Virus record (IMG/VR): IMGVR_UViG_3300017732_000062
Location: 1 to 24,871 of that record
Reading direction: 5' to 3' (one strand)
Source: a virus
DNA: 24,871 bases
Of the stretch, positions 9,865 to 24,871 are shown piece by piece (position 1 is the stretch's first letter; every line of letters begins with the position of its first letter). Position numbers and translations under genes: made by a program. The notes under the pieces were generated by a model, which searched no databases, had not been told where the DNA came from, and saw only the letters and a program-made list of their open reading frames with translations.

Positions 9865-10440
9865 ATGAAAGACTTTTTTGCAGAGATGGAATCTGACGCC
9901 CAAGGTTCTGATGTAGAAACTCTGTCAACCGAAGGGCTGGCTACTGTTGCGGAAATTGCTCGTGCAGTACGTCAAAAAGAAGAAGAAGTGCAATTACTTG
10001 AGTTAGCTGTAAAGAAAGCTAAAACAGAACTGCTCAAACTCACCGATGAAGACCTTCCCAACTTAATACTTGAACTAGGCGTTCGCGACTTTACTTTAGC
10101 CGATGGCTCAAAGGTAGAGCTTCGCACAACCTACGGTGCTCACATCAAGGTGGATAACCGTGAGGAAGCTTTTGCTTGGCTCAAGAAAGCAGGTCACGAC
10201 GATATTATTAAGAACGTCGCGTCTTGTCAGTTTGGTCGAGGGGAAGAAGCCCAAGCCGTGGATTTTGTGAAGTTAGCAGAATCGCAAGGGCTACCTGTAT
10301 TACAAAAGAGAGACGTCCATCCGAGCACCCTCAAAGCGTTTGTGCGAGAGCGTGTTGAAGCCGGTGATGAGTTTCCGATGGATTTATTTGGGGCCTATGT
10401 AGGCCAACGTGCAACTATAAAAGGAGCTAAAAATGTCTAA
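9865..10440 (+). CDS. Conserved phage protein, first gene of replication operon
   Basis: A 191-residue protein with a near-perfect SD (AGGAGGT) six bases before the ATG. Residues about 25-65 form a charged coiled coil (RQKEEEVQLLELAVKKAKTE). A globular part follows, with a short strand/turn pattern (FTLADGSKVELRTTYGAHIKVD) and a helical C-terminus (VHPSTLKAFVRERVEAG). The architecture is familiar from uncharacterised proteins located just upstream of SSB-like genes in marine phages, but I cannot name a family. It overlaps the next gene by eight bases. A role in DNA metabolism or as an SSB partner is inferred from position only. Confidence 0.75.
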   Translation: MKDFFAEMESDAQGSDVETLSTEGLATVAEIARAVRQKEEEVQLLELAVKKAKTELLKLTDEDLPNLILELGVRDFTLADGSKVELRTTYGAHIKVDNREEAFAWLKKAGHDDIIKNVASCQFGRGEEAQAVDFVKLAESQGLPVLQKRDVHPSTLKAFVRERVEAGDEFPMDLFGAYVGQRATIKGAKNV

Positions 10441-11257
10441 AGCAAAATCAGAAGTAGGTACAGTAGAAGTAGAAAGCCAATTACCAGCGTCAATTTCTTC
10501 TTTCGAAGAGGATGGCTTGGAGTTTGTAGAGGATTTGACTTCAGAAGAGATCGGTCTGCCCCGCATTAAAATTGCCGTAGGCACTTCAGATAATCATGGA
10601 ACGGCGGCTAAAGATGGCGAAATCTATAACCCTGTAACATCGAAGGTTTATGGTGAAGGAATGCTGGTAGTCCCTGTTCATTTCACCACTAGCTGGTGCG
10701 AATGGAAGTCGGTGCAGGGTGATGCCCCTGTAAATACTTTTTACTCAGAGAAGGACCTGCCCCCCACAGTTAGACGGGAGGACAAACAATGGCGTGAGAT
10801 AATTCAAGTCAATGGTGAGGATCACCCAGAAGATAACTACATTGGGCTAAATCACGATCACTATGTTCTAATCGTTGATCCTGAAACAGGTGCTTGCGAA
10901 AGTGCGCTAATCGCCATGACGAATACGCGAATCAAGAAGTCTAAGGCGTTAAACACGACAGTGTTAAGTCAGATTGCCCAAGGTGCAAATGGTCCTTTTA
11001 GACCGCCACGCTTTGCGTATCTGTACAATTTTAAGACTATTAAAGAGCAAAATGCTAAGAAACAGCTATATCATAACTGGCAGATAACGATAGACCGGAT
11101 GCTTAATCTGGAAAATGCTACTGAGCAGATGTGGTATGGGGCGGCTAAAAGCTTTAAGAAAGCCGTAATTGCCGGAGAGGTTAAAGTTAGTGCAGAAGTC
11201 GCAGAAGAGGCTACTCAGCCAGCAACTGAGACCTTTGAACCTAGCCCCTTTGGATAA
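10433..11257 (+). CDS. Probable phage single-stranded DNA-binding protein
   Basis: A 274-residue acidic protein. The central part (about 40-215) mixes beta strands and conserved aromatics: LPRIKIAVG, GEGMLVVPVHFTTSWCEWKS, DHYVLIVDPETG and RPPRFAYLYNFKT. The last 20 residues are disordered and acidic, ending in FEPSPFG, which resembles the acidic PF-type tails by which SSBs recruit partners. Position between the operon's first gene and the primase supports a DNA-binding role. I infer SSB from layout and tail, not from a diagnostic motif. The SD is the extended AAAAGGAGCTA (core 10422-10429), part of a set shared by six genes here. Start ATG 10433 overlaps the previous stop. Confidence 0.55.
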   Translation: MSKAKSEVGTVEVESQLPASISSFEEDGLEFVEDLTSEEIGLPRIKIAVGTSDNHGTAAKDGEIYNPVTSKVYGEGMLVVPVHFTTSWCEWKSVQGDAPVNTFYSEKDLPPTVRREDKQWREIIQVNGEDHPEDNYIGLNHDHYVLIVDPETGACESALIAMTNTRIKKSKALNTTVLSQIAQGANGPFRPPRFAYLYNFKTIKEQNAKKQLYHNWQITIDRMLNLENATEQMWYGAAKSFKKAVIAGEVKVSAEVAEEATQPATETFEPSPFG

Positions 11258-18671: not shown

Positions 18672-18896
18672 ATGGACCAAAATAAATGGAAATCGGTAGT
18701 GGTGCCCAGAGAGACGTACTACGATATGCGGTTGATTGCAGAAATCGAAGGCCGGACCATTTCTCGGCAGCTTCGCATGATTGTGGAGCAGTGGATGGAC
18801 GAGCATTTGACCGACAATGACAATGAAAGGCTGGCGACAGCTAAAATTAAGTTAGAGATTGAGGAAGGTAAGCATAACACTAGCTTTTCAATTTGA
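18672..18896 (+). CDS. Ribbon-helix-helix (Arc/CopG-like) DNA-binding protein
   Basis: A 74-residue protein with SD AGGGGGT about six bases before ATG 18672. The N-terminal WKSVVVPRETYYDMRLIAEI followed by EGRTISRQLRMIVEQWM fits the beta-strand, helix, helix pattern of RHH dimers, with SVVVPRE as the DNA-contacting strand. The C-terminal tail is acidic and helical (ERLATAKIKLEIEEGK). It lies beside two divergent promoters and an inverted repeat at 19092-19134, so it may regulate them. The stop overlaps the end of the convergent HTH gene by nine bases. Confidence 0.8.
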   Translation: MDQNKWKSVVVPRETYYDMRLIAEIEGRTISRQLRMIVEQWMDEHLTDNDNERLATAKIKLEIEEGKHNTSFSI

Positions 18897-19043
18897 TGCT
18901 CGACGTCCTCGAAAAATCCAATCGCGAATCGTATCGATGGGTATTTTTAATTCTTTAGCTATCCATTTAATTGAACGCGCTTCGACTTCTCTCAGATGCC
19001 GAACGTGATCAACCACTTCTTGTGAATATTTTTTAGCTGCCAT
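18888..19043 (-). CDS. Small HTH DNA-binding protein, probably leaderless mRNA
   Basis: A 51-residue basic protein from ATG 19043. It reads MAAKKYSQEVVDHVRHLREV and then ARSIKWIAKELKIPIDTIRDWIFRGRR, a homeodomain-like helix-turn-helix with I-x-W-I-A-K-E-L as first helix and TIRDWIFRG as recognition helix. An ATG six bases earlier (19049) lies inside the predicted -10 spacer and no SD exists. The promoter directly upstream places the transcription start at the A of ATG 19043, so a leaderless transcript is predicted. It could be a small repressor or activator for the divergent RNA promoter. Confidence 0.7.
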   Translation of the reverse strand: MAAKKYSQEVVDHVRHLREVEARSIKWIAKELKIPIDTIRDWIFRGRRASN

Positions 19044-19049
19044 ACGCAT

Positions 19050-19077
19050 AGTATACCATATTTTAATGTGCATTCAA
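19050..19077 (-). promoter_or_regulatory. Sigma70-like promoter for the HTH gene
   Basis: On the - strand, -35 TTGAAT (19077-19072), 16-base spacer, -10 TATACT (19055-19050) with TGG directly before it, which is an extended -10. Predicted +1 at 19043 coincides with an ATG. Its -35 lies back to back with the -35 of the + strand promoter, only two bases apart. Confidence 0.65.
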
Positions 19078-19079
19078 CC

Positions 19080-19108
19080 TTGACACCACGGACCAAGGAC
19101 CTTATTAT
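19080..19108 (+). promoter_or_regulatory. Consensus sigma70 promoter for small RNA
   Basis: TTGACA (19080-19085), 17-base spacer, TATTAT (19103-19108): a perfect -35 and 5/6 -10 at optimal spacing, the best promoter in the window. Predicted start near 19115. ACCAAGGA at 19092-19099 in the spacer is repeated inverted at 19127-19134 and nearly directly at 19115-19122, so the spacer may carry an operator. Confidence 0.75.
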
Positions 19109-19114
19109 CCATAT

Positions 19115-19189
19115 ACCAAAGATAGCTCCTTGGTAATAAAAGCCTCGCAGGGTCCAGCCATCCTTTCCTGATGCCCTGCGGGGTTTTTT
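19115..19189 (+). ncRNA. Predicted ~75-nt small RNA with anti-SD hairpin
   Basis: No ORF fits between the consensus promoter (19080-19108) and an intrinsic terminator ending at 19189, which bounds a ~75-nt RNA. It starts with a hairpin: ACCAAAGA (19115-19122), loop TAGC, TCCTTGGT (19127-19134), eight pairs with one A-C mismatch. A linker AATAAAA leads to the terminator hairpin. TAGCTCCTTGGT (19123-19134) is the reverse complement of ACCAAGGAGCTA, nearly identical to the ACCAAAGGAGCTA leader of genes at 23967 and 24868, and its TAGCTCCT core matches the extended SDs of 10433, 20693 and 21860. I infer a trans-acting RNA that blocks ribosome binding. Alternatives: an attenuated leader of the gene at 19254, or a reversed relic of a - strand leader. 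Confidence 0.6.
19143..19189 (+). terminator. Strong intrinsic terminator
   Basis: CCTCGCAGGG (19143-19152) pairs with CCCTGCGGGG (19174-19183), ten pairs with one G-T, followed by six T. The apical part can extend with CATC (19159-19162) and GATG (19170-19173), presenting the pyrimidine loop CTTTCCT. It ends the predicted small RNA. On the opposite strand the stem is followed by CTTTTATTA, so weak bidirectional activity is possible. Confidence 0.9.
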
Positions 19190-19194
19190 CTTGC

Positions 19195-19223
19195 TTGTAA
19201 TCCACATAAAACTCATATATATT
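19195..19223 (+). promoter_or_regulatory. Possible promoter for the gene at 19254
   Basis: TTGTAA (19195-19200), 17-base spacer, TATATT (19218-19223), located just after the terminator and about 30 bases before the start codon. The match is moderate. It would restart transcription after the small RNA terminator. Confidence 0.45.
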
Positions 19224-19253
19224 GCATTTTCTAACAACTATAAGGAGAAAATC

Positions 19254-19463
19254 ATGGGCGATTGGGACGACGACGAAATTATATACGACACGTTACAAAA
19301 TCGAGAAGACGAGGATCGAGCGTATCTGCAAAAGAAAGAATCCGATCTTCATAAAGACCGCAACGCGGTAACCCGTATTTTAAAAGACAATATTCACGCG
19401 ACAGCTGACCTGGTCGATGAATTGGTTAAACATATGCACTTGGTTCGACACGGCATGGATTAA
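19254..19463 (+). CDS. Small acidic hypothetical protein (69 aa)
   Basis: A 69-residue protein from ATG 19254, chosen because TAAGGAG lies seven bases upstream; an in-frame ATG at 19191 lacks an SD and would run through the promoter. It reads MGDWDDDEIIYDTLQNREDE, then a charged amphipathic helix (AYLQKKESDLHKDRNAVTRI) and ends LVDELVKHMHLVRHGMD. No family is recognised. The acidic N-terminus could be a DNA mimic or a protein-binding segment, but that is speculation. It lies between the small RNA and the dyad region before terminase. Confidence 0.65.
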   Translation: MGDWDDDEIIYDTLQNREDEDRAYLQKKESDLHKDRNAVTRILKDNIHATADLVDELVKHMHLVRHGMD

Positions 19464-19484
19464 GAAAAACCACTATATAGCTGT

Positions 19485-19690
19485 GGCTGGAGATTTATTT
19501 TTTATTTTTTTTTTAAAAAAAGGACGTAACCGACGTAACCACGTAACCTTTGGGCTGAGAAGCACGGCCCAAGGGGCTTTGCGAGGTTACGGCAAGGTTA
19601 CAGAAGCCACGCCTCTCGTTAATCTTCAAATTCCGTTAATGTCCTTATATTGTTTTTTTTATTTTTTTTTATTCCAGCCCTATATAACAG
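19485..19690. repeat. GTAACC/GGTTAC nested dyad between T-rich tracts (cos/origin candidate)
   Basis: This 264-base gene-free gap (19464-19727) holds two T-rich tracts (about 19496-19514 and 19650-19671) bracketing a GC-richer block. In the block, GACGTAACC occurs twice in tandem (19523-19531, 19532-19540) followed by ACGTAACC (19541-19548). In the other direction are GGTTAC at 19585-19590 and 19596-19601. Between them TTGGGC (19550-19555) and GCCCAA (19567-19572) form an inner hairpin. The whole is a nested imperfect dyad of about 80 bases right before terminase small subunit, where cos or pac sites usually lie. Iteron-like spacing (9, 8 bases) plus AT tracts also fits a replication origin. 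Overlapping reading frames there look like chance. Confidence 0.6.
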
Positions 19691-19727: not shown

Positions 19728-20294
19728 ATGGACTTAGAATTAGAAAAGAAAAAGCAAGGCCGCCCTAAAGGCTCCGGACGAATTGGCGTCAATCGCCTTC
19801 TGACTCGAAAGCAAGAACTTTTTGTTAAGGAGCTTGTGAGCAAGGACGGTCAAATTACCAAAAGGCAAGCGGCGATCAATGCTGGCTATCCCGAGGGTTC
19901 AGCACACACTCGAGCCTATGATTTAACTAATCCCAAAAAAACTCCTCACGTTTGTGCGGCAATTCGTCGATATCGACAAGAGCTTGATGAAAAATATGGC
20001 ATAGATTTCAAGCGACATGTGAGAGATTTAAAACTTATTCGTGACGAAGCTCTGGCTGCTGGAGCTTTTTCGGCTGCGACGCAGTGCGAAATAGCACGGG
20101 GTCGTGCGCATGGCGATATATATGTTACCAAATCCGAAGTCAGGCATGGTTCAATCGACCAGATGGATCGCGATCAGGTTATGAAAGCTTTGAAGGAAAT
20201 TCAAGAGCAAAATGGAAATGCCATGGGAACTATCATCGACGTCACGCCCGAAGAAAAAGGTGATAAAGGAAAGCAAGCTTTGGCAACGAGTTAA
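19728..20294 (+). CDS. terS: Terminase small subunit
   Basis: A 188-residue protein. The N-terminus is basic (KKKQGRPKGSGRIG). Residues 25-80 contain LTRKQELFVKELVSKDGQ, then ITKRQAAINAGYPEGSAHTR and LTNPKKTPHV, the helix-turn-helix region and spacing typical of Terminase_2-type small subunits. A helical oligomerisation part follows, and the C-terminus is charged and probably binds the large subunit. It recognises packaging DNA and recruits TerL; the GTAACC dyad upstream is the natural candidate site. The SD before ATG 19728 is poor. TerL is not adjacent: the next gene is a nuclease. Confidence 0.85.
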   Translation: MDLELEKKKQGRPKGSGRIGVNRLLTRKQELFVKELVSKDGQITKRQAAINAGYPEGSAHTRAYDLTNPKKTPHVCAAIRRYRQELDEKYGIDFKRHVRDLKLIRDEALAAGAFSAATQCEIARGRAHGDIYVTKSEVRHGSIDQMDRDQVMKALKEIQEQNGNAMGTIIDVTPEEKGDKGKQALATS

Positions 20295-20651: not shown

Positions 20652-20687
20652 ATGTGTACGACAACATAAATTTAAATTAAGGAGCTA
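20652..20687 (+). promoter_or_regulatory. ATGTGTA element and extended SD before gene 20693
   Basis: ATGTGTACGAC at 20652-20662 matches the ATGTGTAYAAT element found before three other transcription units in this window at a similar distance from the start codon. AAGGAGCTA (20679-20687), five bases before ATG 20693, is a nine-base perfect match to the small RNA's TAGCTCCTT. A canonical -35 is not clear. Confidence 0.4.
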
Positions 20688-20692
20688 TACAA

Positions 20693-20845
20693 ATGCCAAA
20701 AGTTATATTTGATTTTCCAGGACGAAAAGTGACGGAAGTGGATCTTGCGGATCTAAAAGAAGAAAAGGATCTCAAGGCTTGCATTAAGCAGATTCCCTTG
20801 AAAGCCGATGCGGATAAGGGTGTTGATACACCGGAGGCTAAATAA
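20693..20845 (+). CDS. Small hypothetical protein (50 aa)
   Basis: A 50-residue protein with a strong extended SD (AAGGAGCTA) five bases before ATG 20693. It reads MPKVIFDFPGRKVTEVDLAD then an acidic/basic segment with one Cys, ending KGVDTPEAK. The first 20 residues suggest a short beta hairpin. Its stop is fused with the next start (TAATG). No family is recognised. Confidence 0.65.
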   Translation: MPKVIFDFPGRKVTEVDLADLKEEKDLKACIKQIPLKADADKGVDTPEAK

Positions 20846-21839: not shown

Positions 21840-21859
21840 CTTCATTAGGAGCTATTATT

Positions 21860-22471
21860 ATGTTGAAAATATCAAAAATGACCGGAAAGCTAGAAGGTAT
21901 ACCGGCCTTAAATACTAATACCTTAACCAATTCTTTTTGCAAAAAAGCTAGTGCAAATCAACACCCGAAGTCTATTTGTGGACAATGTTATTCGGTATCT
22001 ATGCTTAAAACTTATAGATCCAATTGTGCCGAAGCTTGGCAGAAGAACAGCGATATTCTTAGCCATTCTATAATACAGGACCATTTGCTTCCGTCGGTTA
22101 ATGCTCACTCATTTAGATTTGATGGACATGGTGAATTGATAAATTTAACGCATTATTTCAATTTAGTGCGCATCTGTAAAAAGAACCCTAATTGTACTTT
22201 TGCGCTATGGACCAAACGACGCGACATAATCAAACGGGCCGAACGCTCAGTTGATCCAAACGCCGTTCGACCGCCGAATATGATTTTGATTTATAGCAAT
22301 CCGAGAATAGACGCTATTCTTGAAAACCCGCCGTCGCCGTTTGATAAAGTGTTTAACAACACGAGCACGTTCACTGAACGCGACAATTGTTCTGGTAAAA
22401 AATGCCTAGAGTGTATGCAATGCTATAAAAAAGACTCAGGGGTGAATGTAATCGTTGAAGAAGTAAAATAG
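21860..22471 (+). CDS. GP88-like Cys-rich phage protein
   Basis: A 203-residue protein. ATG 21860 is chosen because AGGAGCTA (21847-21854) lies five bases upstream; an in-frame ATG at 21824 is inside the promoter. Two Cys clusters are seen: CKK near the start with SICGQCYSV and SNCAEAW, and at the end NCSGKKCLECMQCYKK. Between them are SFRFDGHGELIN, THYFNLVRICKKNPNCTFAL and WTKRRDI. This layout resembles the phage GP88 family (named for a mycobacteriophage gene), whose biochemical function is unknown; clustered Cys suggest a metal or Fe-S site. It is followed nine bases later by the methyltransferase in one operon. Confidence 0.65.
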   Translation: MLKISKMTGKLEGIPALNTNTLTNSFCKKASANQHPKSICGQCYSVSMLKTYRSNCAEAWQKNSDILSHSIIQDHLLPSVNAHSFRFDGHGELINLTHYFNLVRICKKNPNCTFALWTKRRDIIKRAERSVDPNAVRPPNMILIYSNPRIDAILENPPSPFDKVFNNTSTFTERDNCSGKKCLECMQCYKKDSGVNVIVEEVK

Positions 22472-22480
22472 GAGCTTAAT

Positions 22481-23827
22481 ATGGATTATCAATATGCAAA
22501 ATTAGGAACAAACAAAGGTCGTCGAAGATTATGGTTTGAGGGCGAGATTTTAAACAAATCGGGATTTGCGCCAAATACGCCTTATCGACGAGTTAACAAT
22601 CCGGACGGAAAACAAATCTCTTTGTTTAAGCTTGACGAAAGCGATTATGTTTCGACAGATCGACGAGTGACTAAATCAATGAGGGGCGACAAGCCAAGAC
22701 CAATTATTGATCTTTGTGACAAATCTATTGAAACGATTCTAGGTGATGTTGAAAGGGTAAGAGTGCAATTGTCCTATGGTCTTATTGTTATTTCGGCCCA
22801 TCCAGAAGATCAAGCTAAGAGTGATAGAGAATCGCGTTTTACCGATAACAAAAACAAGGGACAAATTACTCACGCATCTTTGTTTACTGGTGGTGGCATT
22901 TCAACCGACGCTATTCACTCTGCACTAAATGAAGAAGGTTTAATTAAAACTGGTTGTACTTGGGTTTGTGAAGCAGATTCAAAATATATTAACGAAGCTC
23001 AACAAAATTGTTTTGCTATTGATGACGAAACAGTAATTTTAAATGGTCTCGTTGAAGAAGTAGAAACTCAACTATTTACAGAAGTAGACGTTTTATCTTT
23101 ATCGATGGAATGCGCTGGTTTTAGTAAAGCGGGAAAAGTTAAGCATAAGATGAGTGCAGAAGAGCATTCTGGAACAGCTTTGTTTGGTGTAATAAACGCT
23201 ATTAAATCCAGCAATCCCGCCGTCATTATTTCCGAGAATGTTATGGAAGCGATGAACAGCCCAATATACGTTTTGCTAACTTCTGAACTAAAACGATTAG
23301 GTTATAAAGTATTTGAAACAGAACTATCAAATAAACAAACGGGTTCAGTGGAAAGAAGACGCCGGTATTGGTTAACAGCGATCAGTGAAAACTTAGCACC
23401 GGATGATATTTCGCTCTCGGATGTTGCGCCCAATTTAATTCCGTTGAAGCACTATTTAGACAGTGTTCCGGAAACAATGTGGGCGGACAATCAATATTTA
23501 AAAGATAAACAAATACGAGACGCAGCAGCGGGAAAAGGTTTTGCCAATCGACAACTATTAACTGGTGAAGAAACAGAAGTGGGAACAATTGGTCGTCACT
23601 ATGCTAAACGCAGATCAACCGAGCCCTTTATGGTGAGAGCGGACAATAAAGAAAGACTTTTTACTCCGGAAGAGCACGCCAAACTAAAGTCTATTCCTCA
23701 ACGATTAGTGCCTAAAACCGGAATGACAATCGCGCATCAAATTCTAGGACAATCGGTTGATTACTTGCAGCCTTATAAATTGATGCAATGTGTGATTAAT
23801 CGTATAAGGCCGCTTTTGATCAGTTAA
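22481..23827 (+). CDS. Divergent DNA C5-cytosine methyltransferase-like protein
   Basis: A 448-residue protein with AGGAGCT five bases before ATG 22481. Residues 1-125 are an extra N-terminal domain of unknown type. The catalytic part follows: motif I HASLFTGGGIS (131-141), motif IV-like SMECAGFSKAG with the nucleophile Cys211, motif VI SENV (E252-V254), motif VIII VERRRRYWL (R292-R295), and IX/X-like TPEEHAKLKSIPQ and QILGQSVDY. The usual PCQGFS is ECAGFS: the Pro before Cys is Glu and the following Gln is Ala, while Cys and FSxAG remain. It could modify phage cytosines to evade restriction, or act on another pyrimidine substrate. Transcribed with the GP88-like gene. Confidence 0.82.
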   Translation: MDYQYAKLGTNKGRRRLWFEGEILNKSGFAPNTPYRRVNNPDGKQISLFKLDESDYVSTDRRVTKSMRGDKPRPIIDLCDKSIETILGDVERVRVQLSYGLIVISAHPEDQAKSDRESRFTDNKNKGQITHASLFTGGGISTDAIHSALNEEGLIKTGCTWVCEADSKYINEAQQNCFAIDDETVILNGLVEEVETQLFTEVDVLSLSMECAGFSKAGKVKHKMSAEEHSGTALFGVINAIKSSNPAVIISENVMEAMNSPIYVLLTSELKRLGYKVFETELSNKQTGSVERRRRYWLTAISENLAPDDISLSDVAPNLIPLKHYLDSVPETMWADNQYLKDKQIRDAAAGKGFANRQLLTGEETEVGTIGRHYAKRRSTEPFMVRADNKERLFTPEEHAKLKSIPQRLVPKTGMTIAHQILGQSVDYLQPYKLMQCVINRIRPLLIS

Positions 23828-23909: not shown

Positions 23910-23966
23910 TTGCACATATGCAAGGAAAATGTGTATAATGACCCTTCAACCAAAGGAGCTAAAACG
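23910..23966 (+). promoter_or_regulatory. Promoter and leader cassette, copy 1
   Basis: TTGCAC (23910-23915), 18-base spacer, TATAAT (23934-23939). TTGCA and TGCAA (23910-23914, 23919-23923) form a small palindrome. The leader contains ACCAAAGGAGCTA (23949-23961) and AAACG before ATG 23967. From 23929 through the ATG it matches copy 2 (24830-24870) at 38 of 41 positions. Confidence 0.8.
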
Positions 23967-24251
23967 ATGACAATAACCAGAGAGCAAATAGAGCAAAATT
24001 TTAAAACCAATCCCGCCGTTAGCGGGGGGATTGTTCACAAGATCGGGGGACACGAGCCCGAGTCGTATGGAAATTTAGAAAGTTCCGTGATTTTAGTGGA
24101 ACGCGACCATGCCCACAGCCCTTTCGTCACATGGGTCGCAACCAAACAGCGCGGCAGCGGCAAGGTAAATTTTGTGTGGGGAAATTATCTAGATAATTTC
24201 GAGACGGCGGAACGTAATTTTGCGGCAAGGGTTAAGGAGACGCAGCGATGA
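23967..24251 (+). CDS. Hypothetical protein (94 aa)
   Basis: A 94-residue protein from ATG 23967, chosen for the SD AAAGGAG and the promoter directly upstream; a longer in-frame start at 23853 would read through the promoter. It begins MTITREQIEQNFKTNPAVSG and contains ESSVILVERDHAHSPFVTWV and GSGKVNFVWGNYLDNFETAE, which suggests a beta sheet with two Trp and one C-terminal helix. No family is recognised. It overlaps the next gene by four bases (ATGA). Confidence 0.7.
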   Translation: MTITREQIEQNFKTNPAVSGGIVHKIGGHEPESYGNLESSVILVERDHAHSPFVTWVATKQRGSGKVNFVWGNYLDNFETAERNFAARVKETQR

Positions 24252-24810: not shown

Positions 24811-24867
24811 TTGAGTCTATATGCTTTTTATGTGTATAATGGCTCTTCAACCAAAGGAGCTATAACG
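24811..24867 (+). promoter_or_regulatory. Promoter and leader cassette, copy 2
   Basis: TTGAGT (24811-24816), 18-base spacer, TATAAT (24835-24840), leader with ACCAAAGGAGCTA (24850-24862) and TAACG before ATG 24868. Copy of the cassette at 23910-23966; the leader part is almost unchanged while the upstream DNA is different. Confidence 0.8.
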
Positions 24868-24871
24868 ATGG
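24868..24871 (+). CDS. Start of a gene cut by the window end
   Basis: ATG at 24868-24870 with the complete promoter, SD and spacing of copy 2, followed by one base. The product cannot be judged. Confidence 0.6.

Follow-up and report, generated by a model that had tools for sequence, protein, structure and literature searches.

The window, by which we mean the whole virus record of 24,871 bases that was analysed, encodes a primase, a helicase, a DNA polymerase A and a terminase small subunit, together with a region holding a C5 DNA methylase and a GP88-like gene. Between a small, divergent HTH-like gene on the minus strand (18888-19073), a conserved neighbour whose match to Sigma70_r4_2 is weak and below the cut-off, and a gene of 69 aa on the plus strand (19254-19463) lies a predicted small RNA of about 75 nt (19115-19189, plus strand).

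The RNA unit and its neighbours

The unit opens with a sigma70-type promoter (19080-19108, plus strand), with TTGACA at 19080-19085, a 17-nt spacer and TATTAT at 19103-19108. At 11 of 12 matching positions it ranks at the top of the 14 promoter-like sites found between 17.0 and 24.9 kb, but since this number of sites does not exceed that in shuffled sequences (mean 16.1), the promoter match alone is little proof. The predicted RNA begins with a 20-nt hairpin (19115-19134), ACCAAAG-AUAGCUC-CUUGGU, in which UAGC lies within a 7-nt loop, AUAGCUC. An intrinsic terminator follows (19143-19189; CCTCGCAGGG...CCCTGCGGGG-TTTTTT, its loop region spanning roughly 20 nt). The whole RNA folds at -31.8 kcal/mol (z -4.27), a value equalled by none of 200 shuffles, and scores 75.7 bits against a covariance model that has the window itself among its training rows. 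An earlier note on this DNA had described a consensus promoter and a terminator bounding an RNA of this length, and the unit is indeed present at 19080-19189.

A promoter and terminator of its own, no ORF and conservation at the RNA level, the features expected of a trans-encoded phage sRNA, were all found here, with the caveat that in one group of relatives (subgroup C, below) the promoter and U-tract are weak or poor. Rfam 15 gave no match for the window at the gathering threshold and none for 19050-19260 at E<=1, and nucleotide searches of INPHARED gave no match.

Exact-pattern scans recovered six further contigs of the window lineage with the hairpin and the terminator-loop sequence. Three variants occur among the contigs compared, namely the window type, G006 and G003 (G002 has the G003 sequence). 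The hairpin is identical in all three and in the seven window-lineage contigs compared, and the terminator loop is the same save for one T insertion in G003. The promoter spacer and the start region vary among the three, yet both hexamers and their 17-nt spacing are unchanged in G003 and G006. Three one-sided changes in the G003 terminator stem each keep the pairing. A 20-nt match to the hairpin in a 48-kb contig (L083) was rejected as a chance hit: it lies in apparent coding sequence with tandem repeats adjacent and no T-run after it, and by our estimate a collection this large should contain roughly one 18-mer match by chance.

The order of promoter, hairpin, terminator and gene is also that of an attenuator, in which the terminator would be conditional and the hairpin would act as a sensor in cis, and in subgroup B an ORF, which we take to be lipase-like from its GHSLGG motif, begins directly after the U-tract. 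Against a cis leader, however, the gene downstream of the unit changes from lineage to lineage; in G003, for instance, one more ORF separates the unit from the 19254 homologue. The window also has a weak promoter-like site (19195-19223, 9 of 12 positions) between terminator and gene, and the predicted folds contain no structure that competes with the terminator. We therefore give an attenuator very little weight.

Further along, the non-coding stretch at 19466-19602, ahead of the terminase small-subunit gene, contains CGTAACC repeats and the dyad GGCCCAAGGGGC; it is 80-85% identical in L164-L167 and looks like an origin or packaging site. Other short promoter-hairpin-terminator units occur near the HTH-to-terminase interval in relatives (L014-L019, L029-L031, L006-L011, L023-L027, L040 and L046), with hairpins such as AAGGG-UAGUAU-CCCUU and AGGU-GUUGU-ACCU, and this interval is possibly a hot spot for small RNA genes.

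Units with the same loop in related phages

A promoter-plus-terminator scan of relatives, which ran without a shuffle control and whose ORF filter removed the unit of the window but not the G006 copy, found units with the same loop in phages whose HTH-like gene shares 60% (subgroup B) or 67% (subgroup C) identity with that of the window. The stems of these units differ, with pairing kept: ACCAA(A)G/CUUGGU in the window, UUCUAG paired with CUAGAA or CUAGAU in subgroup B, UUCUAG/CUAGAU in subgroup C, and UUCGAG/CUUGAA in a second copy found in contig L163. The loop is always NUAGCUC, closed by a G-C pair and followed by C. The base N is A in subgroup A, C in B and U in C, and U as well in the second L163 copy.

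In a single alignment of eight rows, three of them from the window lineage, RNAalifold predicted the hairpin and the terminator with 22 pairs, 12 of which have two-sided changes. For the hairpin alone, aligned in five rows, three of six pairs have two-sided changes and 28 of 30 cells are paired; shuffles scored as high in 6 of 500 cases for paired cells and for the covariation score, in 40 of 500 for pairs with two-sided changes and in 27 of 500 for pair types. The covariance model R1, searched against 31 sources (28 clade loci and three MAG contigs), returned 28 matches above 50 bits, which represent 20 units spread over 19 distinct contigs from subgroups A, B and C; eight of these units were training rows. 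A further nine matches fell below 22 bits, and six of these come from a single GGAGCTA leader, read on its reverse strand. The 84 loci of other relatives, 805,842 bases in all and many of them fragments, yielded no R1 match at E<=5; 76 of these loci came from the polymerase search (L005-L080), and a homologue of the neighbouring HTH-like gene, which occurs with or without the RNA, is present in 44 of the 76.

In a quick DNA-polymerase tree of 73 distinct sequences (91 before identical ones were merged), A (two rows), B (ten) and C (one) form one clade with SH-aLRT support of 99 and no other row inside, so that a single origin of the RNA suffices for the data. Polymerase identity between the window and L218 is 70%, and the predicted RNA has been kept over divergence down to that level. 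Seven MAG contigs with related polymerases carry labels of six bacterial groups and hence do not identify the host; none of the seven has a TAGCTC hairpin with at least four pairs, the covariance model having been run on three of them.

L163 has two copies of the RNA on its minus strand (565-464 and 2071-1958), each directly after a gene of the 19254 type. The first of these genes, just upstream of the RNA, is 36% identical to the window's over 69 aa (E 2e-10), and the second was judged by eye from its MKQAHNDE start. This suggests that gene and RNA were duplicated as a pair.

A broad scan of viral sequences, which unlike the covariance model required NUAGCUCC, gave 83 stretches in 62 distinct contexts, most of them without a good stem or terminator and rejected. 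Further stretches belonged not to this RNA but to a GUAGCUC element in 5' leaders of 18 viral contigs (L193, L205, L214, L226, L235, L240, L220, L230, L184, L212, L213, L190, L178, L209, L211, L181, L222 and L204). This element lies shortly after a TTGACA-17-TANNNT promoter, is often closed as GGGUAGCUCCC and in many contigs is followed by more inverted repeats and then a gene start. None of the 11 of these 18 contigs that were scanned had an Rfam match for it at the gathering threshold, and it may be an undescribed cis-regulatory RNA.

The variety of stems also bears on a reading of the dyad as a DNA operator, in which CCAAGGA repeats around the promoter would bind a phage regulator and the same operator would recur near other promoters. 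CCAAGGA does occur in the promoter spacer (19093-19099) and, reversed, at 19127-19133, and CCAAAGGA lies just after the promoters at 23911 and 24811. In G006, however, the spacer copy is CCACGGA; the B and C stems are unrelated to CCAAGGA although the loop is kept; and CCAA is absent from 17 of the 21 clusters of GGAGCTA leaders described below. An operator thus appears most improbable.

A leader motif complementary to the loop

The loop and the C after it (19122-19129, plus strand) are antisense to leaders of the form GGAGCUA(U), and NUAGCUC-C is present in every unit found. The window contains AGGAGCT eight times, against a shuffle mean of 3.1 (eight was reached in 2 of 100 shuffles). One copy lies reversed within the RNA and one in coding sequence at 19828; the other six are in Shine-Dalgarno (SD) leaders, at 10422, 20680, 21847, 22470, 23954 and 24855. 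These are the six leaders, of genes 10433, 20693, 21860, 22481, 23967 and 24868, that had been listed as able to pair with the hairpin, and the list is borne out.

All six candidate target leaders are on the plus strand. They comprise AAAGGAGCTA (10420-10429) before gene 10433-11257, of the Pam3_Gp34 family; TAAGGAGCTAT (20678-20688), a 10-nt perfect match that is the same in G005, before gene 20693-20845 (50 aa); TAGGAGCTAT (21846-21855), a 9-nt match, before gene 21860-22471, of the GP88 family; TAGGAGCT (22469-22476) before gene 22481-23827, a C5 cytosine DNA methylase; and two copies of a promoter-leader cassette, one with TATAAT and then ACCAAAGGAGCTA (23911-23966) before gene 23967-24251, the other (24811-24867) before gene 24868 (135 aa, complete in L084). 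Three of these genes are thus named by Pfam: the Pam3_Gp34-like gene, the GP88-like gene and the C5 methylase. CCAAAGGAGCTA occurs exactly twice in the window, in the leaders of 23967 and 24868. The 12-nt match to ACCAAAGGAGCTA with its bulged A carries less weight than the loop core of 7-10 nt that is common across the phages. The duplicated cassette (TGTGTATAATG...TTCAACCAAAGGAGCTAWAACGATG; 23911-23969 and 24811-24871) precedes two different genes, and a large inverted repeat (GGCCCACCCCTTGC...GCAAGGGGTGGGCC) lies upstream of its second copy.

GGAGCTA leaders are located in the replication and accessory region, and G010, like the window, has about six candidate targets. The tail and ejection genes of the window have no such leaders, and in an 18.8-kb contig that continues the window lineage downstream, whose genes are unannotated, only the first gene has one. 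A possible exception is a long gene of subgroup B (G007, 9691), related to a window gene in the 4306 region.

Among unique GGAG leaders, counted with a home-made gene caller, GGAGCTA accounts for 6 of 25 in A (which include two near-identical leaders of one gene), 19 of 55 in B and 2 of 13 in C, compared with 4 of 290 in the outside group D and 0 of 27 in OR003939 (49.5 of its 61.5 kb). For A, B and C together against D this gives a Fisher p of 1.4e-14. An unbiased scan of leader 7-mers, ranked among words seen at least four times, returned GGAGCTA as the word most enriched in the clade (27 of 262 leaders versus 5 of 948; p=2.7e-14), followed by the overlapping words AGGAGCT, TAGGAGC and GAGCTAG. 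Both p-values treat related phages as independent, while the clade represents one origin and leaders within a phage may be copies of a cassette. GGAGCTA is the exact complement of the loop sequence UAGCUCC. In a cruder count, CTA follows AGGAG in 4 of 9 window leaders and in 3 of 139 leaders of relatives, and distinct GGAGCTA sites are in leader position in 31 of 59 cases in A, B and C versus 10 of 40 in D. In two of the MAG contigs with related polymerases, L256 and L259, a single GGAGCTA lies shortly ahead of an ATG or GTG, and AGGAGAAA leaders occur in relatives without the RNA.

The CUA that follows GGAG does not pair with the usual 16S tail and is therefore left unexplained by ribosome binding. 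The target-gene orthologues shown from outside the clade lack GGAGCTA. Leaders of the GP88-like gene have GGAGCTA in A and in the two B orthologues shown, GGAGCTG in C and CGGGAGTT in the three D orthologues shown (L014, L017 and L030); the 14 further orthologue leaders shown for the Pam3_Gp34-like gene all lack GGAGCTA. The loss of UAGCUCC while the SD leaders persist had been named as an outcome that would speak against the idea of an antisense RNA, and the opposite was found, with an invariant loop and enriched leaders.

The variable loop base N changes along with the leaders. The base after GGAGCTA is T in 3 of 5 leader clusters of A, G in 8.67 of 13 of B and A in 2 of 2 of C, and 13.67 of 20 clusters match the RNA of their own subgroup (permuted mean 7.25, p=0.0001); the one of the 21 clusters left out is a mis-called duplicate ORF (VKRR). 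Of four flank tests in all, that for the base at -2 was not significant (p=0.17), the total extension gave p=0.09, and N and -2 together gave p=0.0005. The covariation of hairpin and leaders for which a check had been proposed was seen at N and not at -2. As leader cassettes are copied within genomes (23911 and 24811), we consider the link between loop and leader that this supports to be suggestive rather than proven. At 8 nt there is no subgroup specificity within the clade, and the A, B and C RNAs each match 9 of 56 A leaders.

These patterns also speak to the possibility that the RNA is real and its loop anti-SD, but that its selected targets are host mRNAs, with the phage leaders matching through their ordinary SD. 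The loop contains CUCC, and known phage sRNAs, PreS and VpdS among them, are described as often acting on host mRNAs (PMC12197685). Neither the enrichment of CUA in the RNA-carrying clade, although CUA lies outside ribosome pairing, nor the way in which N tracks the leader base is expected on this account, which we judge unlikely, if less so than the attenuator or the operator.

Duplex energies, computed with the 27-nt hairpin part and with z-scores against shuffled leaders, were -18.6 kcal/mol for 20693 (z -4.05), -18.1 for 23967 (z -4.29) and -15.5 for 21860 (z -3.36); z was -2.28 for 22481 and -1.9 for 10433, the weakest target, and 24868 reached -20.7, without a z-score since the window ends there. 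Four of the five window targets thus paired better than shuffled leaders (z -4.3 to -2.3), as the earlier note would have it, but 10433 did so less clearly and some non-targets paired equally well. Indeed, only 24868 among the targets pairs more strongly than the leaders of 1811, 17313 and 18672 (-20.3 to -19.6); in 1811 and 17313 the pairing lies outside the SD, whereas in 18672 it spans the start region. After correction for accessibility, 20693 is the best of all leaders (-12.1) and 23967 reaches -9.0; four non-targets (-8.4 to -10.5) outrank the other four targets (10433, 24868, 21860 and 22481; -2.9 to -6.4). This target set would not have emerged from energies alone; it is the comparison that singles it out.

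Complements of at least 8 nt to the window RNA occur in 33 of 267 clade leaders versus 29 of 969 others. Among shuffled RNAs, 33 clade leaders were attained by 6 of 3000, and by 5 of 1303 when CTCCT was preserved. Over 16, 15 and 14 nt, the window RNA shows perfect complementarity to a subgroup-B leader module (TATTACCAAGGAGCTA) that precedes genes of the MKIEKNIP- and MTIYRWIP- types, the next best leader match being 11 nt, and the second L163 RNA matches this module over 13 nt. A match of 16 nt never arose in the 3000 shuffles, while the CTCCT-preserving set of 1303 included at least one with 17 nt. The leader with the 16-nt match, TTACCAAGGAGCTA, was found in subgroup B only and in none of the seven window-lineage contigs, where ACCAAGGAG occurs only reversed inside the RNA and no sense-strand leader copy was found. 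The match would fit a main target that is lost or unsampled, or else a hairpin that originated when such a leader was copied in inverted orientation.

Taken further, the same identity of the minus strand to the B module over 16 nt would make the element a reversed leader relic without a function of its own, its complementarity stemming from inverted duplication. The earlier note had offered such a relic as its alternative, pointing to a 12-codon ORF on the minus strand. That ORF (MDNKVLGPWCQG) exists, but its ATG is ATC in G003 and ATA in G006, so it is not conserved, being lost in two of the three variants. The promoter is conserved, stem changes keep the pairs, and the loop is invariant over the range down to 70% polymerase identity. 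We see scant room for a functionless relic, while inverted duplication could still be how the element arose.

Outside the clade, L014, L017, L030 and L078 carry another extended leader consensus, ~AAACGGGAGTT, on several accessory genes, some of them target orthologues. A mirrored loop, expected for these CGGGAGT-type leaders, was not found (8-nt matches to own leaders in 1 of 130 and 1 of 38), and five other unit types matched 2 of 61, 2 of 47, 1 of 10, 1 of 22 and 0 of 96 own leaders at 8 nt. Because the L040 unit matches leaders of other groups as often as 9 of 130 and 8 of 104, 8-nt matches by themselves are not rare. A loop that mirrors the leaders is not a general feature of the family.

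Proposed mechanism and known systems

Comparison across the clade establishes a conserved gene for a predicted RNA and its structure, and shows that loop and leader occur together, and are complementary, specifically in this clade. Of the proposal that this RNA silences phage genes through their SD, the conserved structure and the invariant loop complementary to a clade-enriched leader motif are thereby borne out. We consider it likely that 19115-19189 encodes a trans-acting anti-SD RNA of the phage that blocks ribosome binding at a set of replication- and accessory-region genes, and we hold to this estimate because the case rests on the clade-wide comparison. Transcription of the RNA would begin at its own promoter and stop at its own terminator, and the 5' hairpin would offer the 7-nt loop NUAGCUC to GGAGCUA(N'), that is, to an SD core plus a CUA 'address' found on several of the phage's own genes. 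The loop would make the first contact, and pairing would then extend into the 3' arm, over 8-10 bp in the window phage, covering the SD and lowering translation of the whole gene set together. That the RNA is transcribed and represses rather than activates is what we infer from sequence, and a shut-off of replication and accessory genes late in infection would be the natural guess.

More tentatively, and with the odds somewhat against it, the clade may run a post-transcriptional regulon in which CUA-N' serves the RNA and not the ribosome and in which loop and leaders coevolve (A-U, C-G and U-A at N). The RNA itself may have arisen by inverted copying of such a leader. If this were true, one RNA would shut down an entire gene class of a virus. 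Accounts of gene timing in phages usually invoke promoters, sigma factors and proteins acting on mRNA; a conserved viral RNA able to address many of the phage's own mRNAs via a shared extended SD would be a compact translational switch, and leader motifs mirrored by an RNA loop would offer a way of finding regulons in uncultured phages.

In the titles and abstract openings surveyed from the open-licence literature we did not find one phage RNA combined with a clade-wide leader address on several phage genes, and the known phage RNAs each share part of the arrangement. OOP and sar are described as short phage RNAs that lower phage-gene expression by base pairing (PMC12197685); they are antisense to one gene, whereas the RNA here is predicted to be trans-encoded, with a short seed and many genes. 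VpdS of VP882 and PreS of lambda are described as trans-acting and Hfq-dependent, VpdS affecting both phage and host mRNAs (PMC12197685). They resemble the present RNA in being trans-acting phage sRNAs (here by prediction), and that account describes no leader motif common to many phage genes.

The c4 RNA of P1 and P7, which has complementary sequence probably in loops and blocks a ribosome binding site on phage mRNA (PMC12197685), is similar in that the loop of a phage RNA is complementary to a phage ribosome binding site. In the same account c4 acts on ant mRNA, compared with about six leaders in the window and in G010, and c4 belongs to an Rfam family, whereas the present RNA has no Rfam match. 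In rhizobia, NfeR1/alpha-r14 is reported to carry an ultraconserved unpaired anti-SD motif in hairpins with variable stems, acting in trans and blocking the translation initiation region through about eight nucleotides (PMC10746234). As there described, it is bacterial and has three hairpins with unpaired CCUCCUCCC, whereas the phage RNA has one such hairpin, with loop NUAGCUC, and is matched by a CUA extension in the phage leaders. Both nevertheless combine an ultraconserved anti-SD loop with stems that vary, a likeness that we regard as an analogy of design and not of descent.
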